Shown in pieces: positions 3,882 to 16,855 of a stretch of 64,000 nucleotides of DNA (positions are counted from its first letter, which is position 1; every line of letters begins with the position of its first letter). The DNA comes from Brevibacillus laterosporus. GTDB taxonomy: Bacteria; Bacillota; Bacilli; Brevibacillales; Brevibacillaceae. A model generated the notes under the pieces. It was not told the origin of the DNA. It saw only the letters and a program-made list of their open reading frames with translations, and did no database searches. The stretch spans positions 3,032,001 to 3,096,000 of the forward strand of contig CP033464.1 in NCBI GenBank assembly GCA_007833815.1, given 5' to 3'. Both the position numbers and the translations under genes were made by a program.

Positions 3882-4065
3882 AGGTTCAGTACGGGACAAA
3901 AAGTTAAATTTAGCGGCCATAAACGGATCAAACCTTTCCAATAAATTTTGTCGACACGTTCCGATAAAGCAAACGCATAGTTTATTGGAGTGCAAAACTT
4001 ACGCACCTGTTCACGCCTGATTTGACGGGCTTTTTAGACGAAGGCAAAACCAACGAATAGTGAGT

Positions 4066-6690: not shown

Positions 6691-7180
6691 GTGATCGCCG
6701 AGTCTACTCGGCGGAAGGGGTTTCGCCAACGCTCACGACAATGGGCGGTGGGCACCGTGAACCCAACGGACGGAACCAGTATCAGTTATTGTTTGGATGC
6801 TAATTACGCTAAAGGCACGTCGCCGGGAGAAGTAGGGAAGGGACGTCGCACGCATGTAATGGAGGAAGCCCGCCCTGTTCTTACGCCTGATCGCGGAGAG
6901 AAGGGGCAGAACGGGCGCCGGCGTTCACACTAACGGCACAGGATCGGTACGGCGTAGCTCTCGGCTCATACCCGGGTTACCGAATACGTAAGCTAACGCC
7001 CCTCGAATGCTTCCGTTTACAGGGCTTCCCAGACACTTATTATCACGCGTTAAAGTCCATAGGTATCAGAGCGACTCGCAACTCTACAAAATGGCGGGCA
7101 ATGCCGTAACTGTCAACGTAATAAGCACGATAGGTAGGCGTTTATTACCGTATCTTAGTGCAGAAATAAAGGAGGCGAGT
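6691..7180 (+). pseudogene. DNA (cytosine-5) methyltransferase, C-terminal half, multiply frameshifted
   Basis: Four pieces in shifting frames together match the C-terminal half of phage-type m5C methyltransferases: RRVYSAEGVSPTLTTMGGG (from 6696), DANYAKGTSPGEVGKGRRTHV and RPVLTPDR (6790-6915), FTLTAQDRYGVAL and IRKLTPLECFRLQGFPDTYY (6924-7040), and QLYKMAGNAVTVNVISTIG (7079-7135). The last two are conserved motifs IX and X. At least three frame changes are needed, and the catalytic PC motif region is absent, so it is dead. The left edge near 6690 abuts AT-rich sequence and looks like a breakpoint. Confidence 0.8.
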
Positions 7181-7726
7181 GGCAGCCGTACCGTTTCATT
7201 GTTGCACAATCGTTCGCGGTTCCAATATGTAGAGTTCGATGAAGATGGCACCATAACGCAGGTCTCTATAGCAGATTCTGACGAACAAGTAGAGAAAGAA
7301 AAACAAAAACAGTCTAAAATGGCGGCATTTGCAAAGAAAGATATAGACAGGAAAGCACATGAACCATACTATGGTTATTATTATGTAGTCGATAAGAGTG
7401 GGAGCAATAAGTACTGGGATGTCGGGAATGGTAAAGTAGGAACCTATGTAAAACAAACATCAAGTAACAAAAGCGACTTGTTTGATTATGAGGATAAAGT
7501 TCTAGATTTAATTAAAGCTGAGGGTACGCTTATTGCAAACTCAACCGTTTCAGCCTCGGCATTTATGGCAAGTGTAAAAGGCATTAAATCAGGTTGGGGC
7601 GCTGATAGAATTATCGCTTTTCTCGGATCTGCTGGTTTTGGTATGGCAGCAGCTGTTAACGCTGCAGATGTGGTTATAATTGAGAGAAAAGCAGCACGTG
7701 CATTTGATATTATTTATGAAAAGTAG
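7007..7726 (+). CDS. Chimeric ORF: methyltransferase tail joined to unknown AT-rich protein
   Basis: The 239-codon frame starts inside the methyltransferase remnant (residues about 24-50 carry its motif X), then changes character near 7,160-7,200: base composition becomes AT-rich and the remaining 180 residues (FQYVEFDEDG, YYGYYYVVDKSGSNKYWDVG, then a Gly/Ala-rich hydrophobic GSAGFGMAAAVNAADVVI near the C-terminus) belong to something else. The natural start of that second protein was probably lost at the junction. A small membrane protein follows with a one-base overlap, so a secreted toxin-immunity-like pair is possible, but I do not recognise the family and give no function. Confidence 0.5.
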   Translation: MLPFTGLPRHLLSRVKVHRYQSDSQLYKMAGNAVTVNVISTIGRRLLPYLSAEIKEASGSRTVSLLHNRSRFQYVEFDEDGTITQVSIADSDEQVEKEKQKQSKMAAFAKKDIDRKAHEPYYGYYYVVDKSGSNKYWDVGNGKVGTYVKQTSSNKSDLFDYEDKVLDLIKAEGTLIANSTVSASAFMASVKGIKSGWGADRIIAFLGSAGFGMAAAVNAADVVIIERKAARAFDIIYEK

Positions 7727-7941: not shown

Positions 7942-8001
7942 TTGGTAATCGCGGTAGTAGCACTGGTTATCTCGATCGCCGCCGTGAAAAATCGCAAGTA
8001 G
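7942..8001 (+). pseudogene. Remnant of a tiny phage membrane peptide
   Basis: TTG 7942 to TAG 7999 reads a single helix LVIAVVALVISIAAVKNRK. Its codons are GC-richer than the gene just before it and it ends exactly at a terminator, so it looks like the 3' end of a small phage membrane gene whose start was lost. No Shine-Dalgarno. Confidence 0.35.
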
Positions 8002-8026
8002 TCGTCGGATACACCGGCGGCTTTTT
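8001..8026 (+). terminator. Terminator before the micro-ORF array
   Basis: An 8-bp stem 8001-8008 / 8014-8021 (two G-U pairs valid on the plus strand) with loop ATACA and five Ts. It separates the upstream unit from the micro-ORF array, which therefore needs its own promoter or readthrough; no obvious -35/-10 pair was seen in 8,027-8,052. Confidence 0.7.
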
Positions 8027-8066
8027 GTATATATGGAAGGATTTCGTAGGCGAGGAGGTGGATATG

Positions 8067-8159
8067 ATGAAAACTAATAGACACGGTACAGACCCAAATT
8101 GGGACTCAGGCCCACGTTGGAAAACGGCTCCTGATTGGTACGTAGACCCCGGCTATTAA
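8067..8159 (+). CDS. Micro-ORF 1 of W/DPGY array (30 aa)
   Basis: AGGAGGTG (8053-8060) precedes tandem ATGs at 8064 and 8067; the second has better spacing and gives 30 residues. The peptide is rich in Trp, Asp, Pro and Gly: an N-terminal HGTDPNWDSGPRW and a C-terminal APDWYVDPGY. The C-terminal W-x-x-DPGY is the signature shared by the array. No signal peptide, membrane helix or cysteine. The next member starts 19 nt after the stop. Confidence 0.65.
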   Translation: MKTNRHGTDPNWDSGPRWKTAPDWYVDPGY

Positions 8160-8178
8160 TATTAGGAGGTTACGCGAC

Positions 8179-8217
8179 ATGACTAATCCAGAATGGGATG
8201 CAGACCCGGGTTATTAA
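8179..8217 (+). CDS. Micro-ORF 2 of W/DPGY array (12 aa)
   Basis: ATG follows TTAGGAGG by 8-9 bases. The whole product is MTNPEWDADPGY, essentially the array motif alone: MT-x-P-E/D-W at the start and DPGY at the end. It is bounded by 19-nt intergenic spacers on both sides. At 12 residues only its regular placement, ideal ribosome binding site and similarity to its neighbours make it credible. Confidence 0.65.
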   Translation: MTNPEWDADPGY

Positions 8218-8236
8218 TCGAAGGAGGGTGTTACTT

Positions 8237-8293
8237 ATGACGGAACCAGATTGGATTTTTGACCCCGGTTGGGACGCAGACCCCGGACATTGA
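8237..8293 (+). CDS. Micro-ORF 3 of W/DPGY array (18 aa)
   Basis: AAGGAGGG lies 8 bases before the ATG. Product MTEPDWIFDPGWDADPGH contains two copies of the motif (W-x-x-DPG and W-x-A-DPG), so it may have arisen by internal duplication; the final Tyr of the pattern is His here. It is separated from members 2 and 4 by 19 nt each. Confidence 0.65.
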   Translation: MTEPDWIFDPGWDADPGH

Positions 8294-8312
8294 ACAAGGG
8301 AGGAACCGCGAT

Positions 8313-8383
8313 ATGATCTACGATATGAATTGGCATGCGATCCTCAAGGTATTATTAATTGGCTCGACGATGCCGGCTATTAA
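8313..8383 (+). pseudogene. Micro-ORF 4 of W/DPGY array, frameshifted
   Basis: GGGAGG precedes ATG 8313, which reads MIYDMNWHA and then leaves the motif frame. A one-base insertion after 8337 restores MIYDMNWHADPQGIINWLD followed by DAGY and TAA 8381. The restored stop lies exactly 19 nt before the next ATG, as in the other members, which independently supports the frame correction. As sequenced, the ATG frame runs through into member 5's frame to 8480. Confidence 0.55.
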
Positions 8384-8402
8384 TCGAAGGAGGCTACAGA
8401 GT

Positions 8403-8480
8403 ATGACCGAACCAGAATGGGCAGTGCAACGTAATTGCAATACGGGCGATCCGGGTTATGTCGACGATCCCGGTTATTAA
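8403..8480 (+). CDS. Micro-ORF 5 of W/DPGY array (25 aa)
   Basis: CGAAGGAGG lies 9 bases before the ATG and repeats the sequence before member 3. The product begins MTEPEWAVQRNCNTG and ends DPGYVDDPGY, carrying the terminal motif twice and the only cysteine of the array. The frame is continuous with the broken member 4 upstream, but the internal binding site and spacing argue for initiation at 8403. Confidence 0.65.
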   Translation: MTEPEWAVQRNCNTGDPGYVDDPGY

Positions 8481-8502
8481 TATCACCGAAGGGGTGCGCT
8501 AT

Positions 8503-8559
8503 ATGACAGAATCTGATTGGACAAAACAACGTTTTAATGACGGTGGAATCGGCTGGTAA
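8503..8559 (+). CDS. Micro-ORF 6 of array, divergent (18 aa)
   Basis: CGAAGGGG precedes the ATG; the spacer from member 5 is 22 nt. Product MTESDWTKQRFNDGGIGW keeps the MTE-x-D/E-W start and a Gly-aromatic end but has lost DPGY. It is the last recognisable member; no further binding-site/ATG pair with this pattern follows. Confidence 0.55.
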   Translation: MTESDWTKQRFNDGGIGW

Positions 8560-8993
8560 GCAGCCACTTTTACCACGATGTACGCGGACCAGAGTAGTAC
8601 GGAGTTGCTACTACGCTTAGTCTCGTGGGAGCCGGATTCATGTCGGGGTGTACACTTGACGTGGTTGGCGCTGGCAATCCGACCTTTCGGGCTACGAGCG
8701 CTAGAGGATTGCCAAGACGTGATTCGGAAAGAAGGCGGGCAGCCGATAACATGGCGAAGATGCGGTAGAGAAGACGCTCGGAAAGTGTTACGGTAAATTT
8801 TACTGGTAAATAAGACTTATGTACTTAGACTTACTAATAAGACTTAAAAAGATACCGCCTCAATCAGTCACTCTTATATAAAAGATAGAGACATGAGGAA
8901 GAGTTAGACGAGACCTAGGTATAGTAAGTACATTTGATCGCGTAGGTACTTGAAAGCATATTAGAAGAAGTGAAAGATAGATTGGAATAGGAG
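8560..8993 (+). other. Decayed phage coding sequence and AGACTTA repeats
   Basis: 8,580-8,810 has coding-like but frame-switching segments (for example GNPTFRATSARGLPRRDSE, then DAVEKTLGKCYGKFYW ending at a TAA near 8808) that look like one phage protein broken by indels; I do not recognise it. 8,811-8,846 holds three copies of AGACTTA spaced 14 and 13 bp. 8,950-8,990 ends with a short open stretch LESILEEVKDRLE that stops just before the next small ORF. Confidence 0.35.
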
Positions 8994-16539: not shown

Positions 16540-16855
16540 TAAATGAAGGTAAATAAGCATACGCAAAGACGAAGAGGAGTATGCATGCAGAATGCTAAAG
16601 AGAGCTGATGGGTGGTGCAAATCAGTGCAGGAAGCTTGCAGAATGGACTTTTGAGCGTTCAGACCGAGAGTGTTAGCGCACAGGTAGGCTCTGGCGGAGT
16701 GTCTCACCGATAAAGGAGACATGTATTCGAACAGACATGCATAAAGTACGCTCTTGTTCCGATACATAATGAGCGCGCTGTGTAAACAGCGAATCAAGGT
16801 GGCACCACGGGTTTCCCGTCCTTATTTTTAGGATGGGAAACCCTTTTTTTATTTC
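16540..16855 (+). promoter_or_regulatory. T-box riboswitch upstream of trpS
   Basis: A long structured leader ends with AAGGTGGCACCACGG (16796-16810), the T-box that pairs with uncharged tRNA acceptor ends, and an intrinsic terminator GGGTTTCCCGTCC / GGATGGGAAACCC (16809-16843) plus T-run. In the stem I region GAATGGAC places UGG (16644-16646) at the likely specifier position, matching tRNA-Trp and the downstream trpS. Uncharged tRNA-Trp should favour the antiterminator and expression. Specifier assignment is by eye. Confidence 0.85.

Follow-up and report, generated by a model that had tools for sequence, protein, structure and literature searches.

The tandem micro-ORFs at positions 8064-8559 of the window (the whole stretch of 64,000 nucleotides analysed here) belong to a group of phage and prophage arrays which probably, at a rough probability of 0.75, encode leaderless polypheromones acting on AloR-like receptors; within this reading we infer the expression, the processing, the binding, the direction of the effect and the benefit to the phage. 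The micropeptides are largely strings of xxP[EDN]W pentamers and xx[DN]PG[YH] or xx[DN]PQG hexamers without a signal peptide, and across all arrays 21 of 40 putative C-terminal pheromone units of receptor-associated propeptides occurred in them as exact copies.

Organization of the array in the window

The array resides in a decayed prophage of a B. laterosporus-like bacterium. A preliminary description of this DNA had listed six consecutive micro-ORFs, each with a strong Shine-Dalgarno sequence. The tandem layout was confirmed, as were the inter-ORF spacers of 19, 19, 19, 19 and 22 nt, but copy 4 is frame-broken (read from its ATG at 8313, it misses the DAGY end and continues for 55 codons to 8480), and micro-ORF 6 carries AAGGGG instead of a GGAGG-type ribosome site and was missed by the Shine-Dalgarno filter. 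The copies are as follows:

8067..8159, + strand: micro-ORF 1, 30 aa, with a further ATG at 8064
8179..8217, + strand: micro-ORF 2, 12 aa, MTNPEWDADPGY, M + TNPEW + DADPGY
8237..8293, + strand: micro-ORF 3, 18 aa, M + TEPDW + IFDPGW + DADPGH
8313..8383, + strand: copy 4, frame-broken, with a DDAGY-like tail out of frame with the start
8403..8480, + strand: micro-ORF 5, 25 aa, M + TEPEW + ... TGDPGY + VDDPGY, TEPEW being an exact unit
8503..8559, + strand: micro-ORF 6, 18 aa, MTESDWTKQRFNDGGIGW, ending in GGIGW, no exact unit

The motif GAYSCNGGNYAYTRA has five copies in the window, all of them inside the array, and none in 100 shuffles. Inspection by eye of the array micropeptides (10-43 aa) revealed no signal-like hydrophobic stretch, in agreement with the preliminary description, whose statement that no maturation enzyme lies nearby likewise fits our observations at the array. 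Searches of Pfam and PHROGs with four peptides per database returned no known family, and an Rfam scan found no structured RNA family at the array. The sole Rfam match in the window lies elsewhere and is a T-box leader (RF00230, positions 16557-16826) above the gathering score.

Distribution of related arrays and their flanks

Including the one in the window, we found 15 distinct arrays, all in prophages of the B. laterosporus group or in phage Emery. DNA similarity placed arrays in 4 of 60 genomes (G000, the genome of the window, together with G002, G004 and G005), with two further arrays in the window's own genome at 3009.5 kb and 3190 kb, while pattern searches found them in 4 of 40 genomes of the family (own genome included) and in 3 of 399 genomes of a class sample; all carriers from the genome searches belong to one genus. 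One exact pattern run against genome contigs matched only B. laterosporus MSSRFCCT15, and among 50,697 phage records the sole match was Brevibacillus phage Emery. Eight IMG/VR contigs carried arrays, one of them identical to that of G002, and the plasmids searched for arrays gave no match. The arrays of L017 and L027 are identical to each other, and at least three (L018, L020 and L025) look decayed. The order of ORF types is common to the prophages while the number of ORFs differs; stop-to-start spacers are mostly 16-22 nt and the ORFs have their own ribosome sites. The array of phage Emery is unannotated and is overlapped by two opposite-strand genes. These genes, gp37 and gp38 (L014, KC595516.1 27877-28346), are annotated antisense to the array and could be false gene predictions.

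Three features flank the array in the window:

7007..7726, + strand: remnants of prophage genes 5' of the array, with an initial segment that resembles the end of C-5 DNA methylases
8000..8022, + strand: terminator-like hairpin with U tail, directly 5' of the array, fold z-score -5.5
8658..8705, + strand: conserved downstream element, 91-94% identical in L014 (phage Emery), L016 and L024 and 81-82% in L018 and L020

The first part of 7007-7726 matched PF00145 at 21.1 bits, just below the cut-off of 22. A hairpin of similar form lies 5' of 13 of the 14 aligned arrays (in L016 at 3989-4010), with an altered stem in L018 and L020, phage Emery being the one without it. Such a conserved hairpin directly 5' of the arrays implies either antitermination or a promoter within the short interval that separates it from micro-ORF 1. 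The element at 8658-8705 matched no Rfam family and did not fold clearly better than its shuffles. Gene context differs: in L017-type prophages, methylase, sigma-factor-like and XRE genes lie 5' of the array and a helicase-loader-like gene and terminase genes 3', whereas the array of phage Emery has lysis/methyltransferase genes on one side and an XRE gene plus integrase on the other, and the gene immediately 3' of the array varies among loci. Small ORFs of 28 and 34 aa with the look of membrane helices, a further group of micro-genes, occur just 5' of some arrays (L016, 3904-3990; L017, 3334-3438 and 3574-3660).

Selection on the reading frames

Over seven ORF types, after exclusion of type T1 and of ORFs that differ in length, pN/pS was 0.31 overall and 0.21-0.38 per type, compared with 0.90 and 1.11 in shifted-frame controls. 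Because 15 arrays keep the same frame types and show this ratio against the controls, the array goes beyond chance, and what is conserved is the peptides rather than the DNA repeat. The preliminary description had left a choice between recent amplification and selection, proposing a substitution ratio on the repeats as a check. That ratio speaks for selection; recent amplification finds no support, since synonymous divergence within an ORF type is about 0.43 (pS) and the prophages share both the repertoire of ORF types and their order.

The same data bear on a translation-regulatory relay or leader-peptide array, a role which had also been put forward and which we consider scarcely credible. 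Regular spacing (mostly 16-22 nt), individual ribosome sites and a terminator-like hairpin 5' of the array would suit a relay, but selection acts at the amino-acid level, the number of ORFs and the directly downstream sequence vary from array to array, and the idea is unsupported for these reasons; it would also leave unexplained the identity of array units to the C-termini of propeptides described below.

Receptor-propeptide loci that supply the units

A search of the window's own genome for [DN]PG[YH] before a stop codon returned 32 places, 15 of them in its three arrays and 17 elsewhere. Loci were obtained for 15 of the 17 non-array places, and in 12 of the 15 the motif ends a frame of 46-57 codons with a hydrophobic N-terminal part, directly 3' of a receptor-like ORF, which is shortened or broken in L053, L056, L058 and L061. 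All five receptors scanned matched HTH_3 (PF01381) above the Pfam cut-off, and TPR matches were sub-threshold in three of the five and absent from the other two. A sequence search of solved structures returned HTH proteins, along with weak matches to TPR proteins for one of two receptor queries. The non-array loci thus look like RRNPP/Alo-type pairs, judging from sequence, with the TPR domain weakly supported. Alo systems are described in Paenibacillaceae, including Brevibacillus, in passages of Voichek et al. (2020; PMC7425212), and a passage on RRNPP_Detector mentions an AloR-AloP pair on a plasmid of B. laterosporus LMG 15441 (PMC10075063). As far as those passages on Alo go (PMC7425212), the unit-supplying loci are alike in the HTH receptor and the adjacent secreted-type propeptide, and a Spo0E-like gene, in Alo-type systems a frequent but not obligatory neighbor, lies downstream of some.

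Searching the genus with one receptor query gave 89 matches in six of six genomes, of which 65 were followed, the rest being mostly short or broken pieces. With fragments and broken copies counted, 26 of the 89 AloR-like matches fall in the window's own genome alone. Candidate propeptides were chosen on three features, namely position, ribosome site and a hydrophobic N-terminus (hydropathy only); the C-terminal ends played no part in the choice, and out-of-frame candidates were excluded from the propeptide and hexamer counts. By these rules 56 of the 65 receptor matches were followed, at a distance of 12-140 nt, by a candidate, and 55 of the 56 ended in one of three motif types: 45 in [DN]xG[YHFW], 6 in PQG or PLG and 4 in PDW, with one ending otherwise. 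One receptor-propeptide pair, on G004:C2, ends in DYDPGY. Phages Sundance (L220) and SecTim467 (L219) each carry a DPG-class Alo-like receptor, a propeptide (TDNPGY and TDDPGY) and a Spo0E gene (PF09388), and Spo0E is annotated beside receptors on three plasmids.

Propeptides ending in PxW pair with a looser set of receptors, the main one of which is ~24% identical to the first class; their units are TEPDW, TAPDW, AEPDW, SFPEW, TDPEW, TEPEW, IEPEW and TDPNW. IEPEW and TDPNW are encoded on B. laterosporus plasmids, and the first-class query picked up the receptors of both. Several PxW receptors in IMG/VR or prophage records adjoin repressor-type HTH genes, as would those of an arbitrium-like system. 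Among 40 genomes of the family, 3, all in the array-bearing genus, encoded close relatives (E up to 1e-45) of the main PxW receptor. A pattern search of the genus for further PxW propeptides returned 34 places, 30 with a locus and none new; two of the 30 showed a hydrophobic N-terminal part, and these, one of them a remnant, had been identified before. Likewise, searching with the PxW receptor gave four loci in IMG/VR and four places in the family, none beyond loci or records already known.

Exact matches between micropeptides and propeptides

All eight PxW pentamers were present as exact copies in 61 distinct phage micropeptides; shuffling the residues of the phage pentamers within columns gave a mean of 2.6, and 8 was reached in none of 50,000 shuffles. 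For the DPG-type hexamers, 13 of 29 were exact (13 of 32 when the three ending in PGW, from G001 and G003, are included; these PGW units, three pentamers and three hexamers, stand outside the 8/8 and 13/29 counts). In an earlier set of 34 propeptide hexamers, nine C-terminal hexamers were shared with micropeptides (shuffle mean 3.1; at least nine in 3 of 20,000), as were 11 variable dipeptides (shuffle mean 4.3; 11 reached in 0 of 20,000). The list of 61 omits the broken copy in the window, truncated products of the decayed arrays L018 and L020, the fused L019 frame, and MTESDWTKQRFNDGGIGW (window and L015), which has no exact unit; L027, with the same array as L017, is excluded from the counts.

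Control comparisons were negative: neither reversed hexamers nor the propeptide hexamers just upstream gave any match. When 37 units were compared with the six frames of 11 loci, 54 matches fell within arrays (identical in L017 and L027) and none outside. Longer matches were likewise absent: none of 32 heptamers was shared, nor was any of the 11 hexamers taken from propeptides that end in W. This boundary at five or six residues is due in part to a fixed neighbouring residue, Trp preceding the hexamer in 43 of 49 phage cases and Tyr in 32 of 52 propeptides. We infer the mature form of the pheromones from the C-terminal position of the unit in the propeptide, and since the matches stop at five or six residues, the arrays predict the mature lengths; mass spectra of some AloP, as reported in a passage of PMC7425212, suggest pheromones of six residues.

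Five new units from Brevibacillus came to hand after the peptide list had been fixed, and four of them (TEPEW, TDDPGY, IEPEW and TDPNW) were present in it. The fifth, YPDPGW from a plasmid of Brevibacillus sp. DP1.3A, had no micropeptide match, nor did two Paenibacillus plasmid ORFs, one ending in GGIHPW; all three candidates are excluded from the 65 propeptides. The propeptide candidate beside the receptor of L229, a Paenibacillus thiaminolyticus plasmid, ends in HGGIHPW, which recalls the unmatched HGGIGW end of a micropeptide.

The array in the window holds four exact units (TDPNW, TAPDW, TEPDW and TEPEW), all of the PxW class, while none of its DPG hexamers was exact among the propeptides found. 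Micro-ORF 1 contains two of them, TDPNW, the C-terminus of a propeptide encoded by plasmid pAZOBL1, and TAPDW, the unit of a propeptide on G000:C2 in the same genome as the array; its own end, YVDPGY, has no exact match. TEPDW of micro-ORF 3 is exact in a propeptide ending in ITEPDW, found in G005:C3 and in one IMG/VR record, and the units of micro-ORF 2 have no exact counterpart among the propeptides found. The preliminary description had suggested C-terminal-tag decoys, which comes close, the tags being those of RRNPP-type propeptides encoded elsewhere in the genus, on plasmids and by other phages.

Two alternatives assign the peptides other roles. The likeness might go back to propeptide genes captured in the past, or to a structural motif common to both, while the micropeptides bind a different target in host or phage; the motifs are indeed short, and AVQRNCN, TKQRF, GGIGW and IYDW have no pheromone counterpart here. 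We judge this highly improbable, given match boundaries at five and six residues, the 8/8 PxW result and a codon choice that is not shared. Codons in the shared units were about as alike as random synonyms, which lends no support to recent DNA capture from propeptide genes. The peptides might instead be antagonists or competitors that block the maturation proteases, oligopeptide import or the receptors themselves. At least one exact unit occurs in 45 of the 61 micropeptides. A blocker would suit the many units that match only nearly, the 16 micropeptides that lack any exact unit and the different preceding residue in phage and propeptide (Trp versus Tyr, above); we nevertheless hold antagonism to be unlikely, as 21 units are identical over their full length, as an agonist requires.

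Other candidates were rejected. Mimicry of the SSB C-tail fits poorly, as one host SSB tail ends in NITDDDLPF, unlike the array units. Discovery of the propeptides led us to set aside ribosome arrest, 2A-like skipping and queuosine codons.

Proposed mechanism

In the agonist reading that we favor, prophage expression would lead to micropeptides made in the cytosol, where, whole or cut after Trp, they would occupy intracellular AloR-like receptors, bypassing the normal route of export, extracellular processing and Opp import and falsely reporting many signallers at once. For the M+5+6n residue form (22 of the 61 micropeptides, by a loose pattern), two of the ends would already be correct through removal of Met and termination at the stop codon, and cleavage behind Trp would release the remainder. 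A passage of PMC7425212 relates that AloP13 shuts off the downstream spo0E-like gene, Alo13 being from Paenibacillus polymyxa; as this pheromone turns off the gene of a Spo0E-like phosphatase, the same direction is expected for the arrays, and receptor-activated genes such as spo0E would be switched off. The lysogeny decision of rival prophages with PxW systems would be disturbed. Extended, unprocessed peptides are described in passages on Phr105 (PMC11343458) as binding poorly or not productively, so processing of the array peptides must be assumed. Action would take place in the producing cell, or in neighbors after lysis. The earlier suggestion of host-directed phage micropeptides thus pointed in the right direction.

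It is also conceivable, although we think it somewhat unlikely, that the mimics act outside the cell, being released by lysis, cut by extracellular proteases and imported by neighbors as a false broadcast. Extracellular proteases mature extended pheromone peptides in phage systems of B. subtilis, according to a passage of PMC11343458; L017-type arrays lie between a sigma-factor-like gene and terminase genes and are thus possibly middle or late; and the arrays fit their own genome no better than other genomes. A broadcast, however, needs no leaderless design.

Comparison with known systems

No AloR-like gene was present among the listed ORFs neighboring the arrays. Nine array-bearing virus or phage records were examined for receptors: one encoded, at another place than the array, a distant receptor of full length (25%), four had HTH-sized matches only, and four had none. 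Lacking a receptor and a signal peptide, and stringing several different pheromones together, the array differs from Alo and is therefore not an RRNPP system by membership; in our reading its function resembles that of the ligand side in many such systems. Streptococcus SIP, the subject of Do et al. in 2017, is reportedly a leaderless RRNPP pheromone made from a micro-ORF, as in the array, but is said to be a single signal from a host gene with its own receptor adjacent. The phage anti-quorum-sensing protein Aqs1 is aimed at host quorum sensing, as proposed for the array, but it is a folded protein that inhibits one receptor and involves no copies of a ligand.

Arbitrium (AimR-AimP) and the Rap-Phr system of phi3T (PMC8027211, PMC10075063) are also peptide languages of the RRNPP type used by phages, with links to lysogeny and sporulation; they consist of a receptor and a secreted propeptide with one signal, whereas the array is leaderless and has ligands only, for many signals. 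An arbitrium locus unites aimR, aimP and aimX, and no receptor-like gene was found at the arrays. The tandem-pheromone propeptides Phr3T and Phr105 resemble the array in holding more than one pheromone unit per peptide but, on the evidence of passages in PMC11343458, are secreted and serve one receptor, which they adjoin. Within the titles, abstract openings and passages of the open-access literature, we found no receptor-less array of multiple pheromones.

Genomic location of the matched units

Own-genome fit was low throughout, with 3 of 15 units of G000 exact in its three arrays (only TAPDW in the array of the window), 1 of 13 in G002, 0 of 12 in G004 (decayed array) and 1 of 7 in G005. A simple takeover of the array's own host is weakened as an explanation by this lack of an own-genome excess of matched units. 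The widespread pheromones VVDPGH, VYDPGF and FVDPGH have no exact copy in the micropeptides.

One tentative extension, to which we give somewhat less than even odds, is a signal war in which a recombining library of counterfeit pheromones drives receptors encoded by rival plasmids and phages, and those of host strains in which these reside; if so, decisions of rivals on lysogeny, conjugation or sporulation would be set to the advantage of the array phage. Peptide quorum sensing in Bacillota is usually treated as a private line between propeptide and receptor. A receptor-less phage element that prints many pheromones would, if the reading is true, represent a novel means of steering bacterial decisions, and might account in part for the upkeep of dozens of diverging receptor-pheromone pairs in the hosts. 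The unmatched units TNPEW, TAPEW, LEPEW, VDPDW, AGPRW, VDDPGY and GGIGW would then predict pheromones yet to be seen.

The units copied exactly lean towards mobile elements: plasmids, extra-chromosomal contigs, phages or IMG/VR records carried 12 of the 21 mimicked units, compared with 1 of 16 non-mimicked units (Fisher p 0.0016), in a classification that was made post hoc on uneven sampling, counts the extra-chromosomal contigs of G000 as mobile and omits the three PGW hexamers of G001 and G003. Within the DPG class alone, the corresponding counts under the same classification were 6 of 13 and 1 of 16 (p 0.026).
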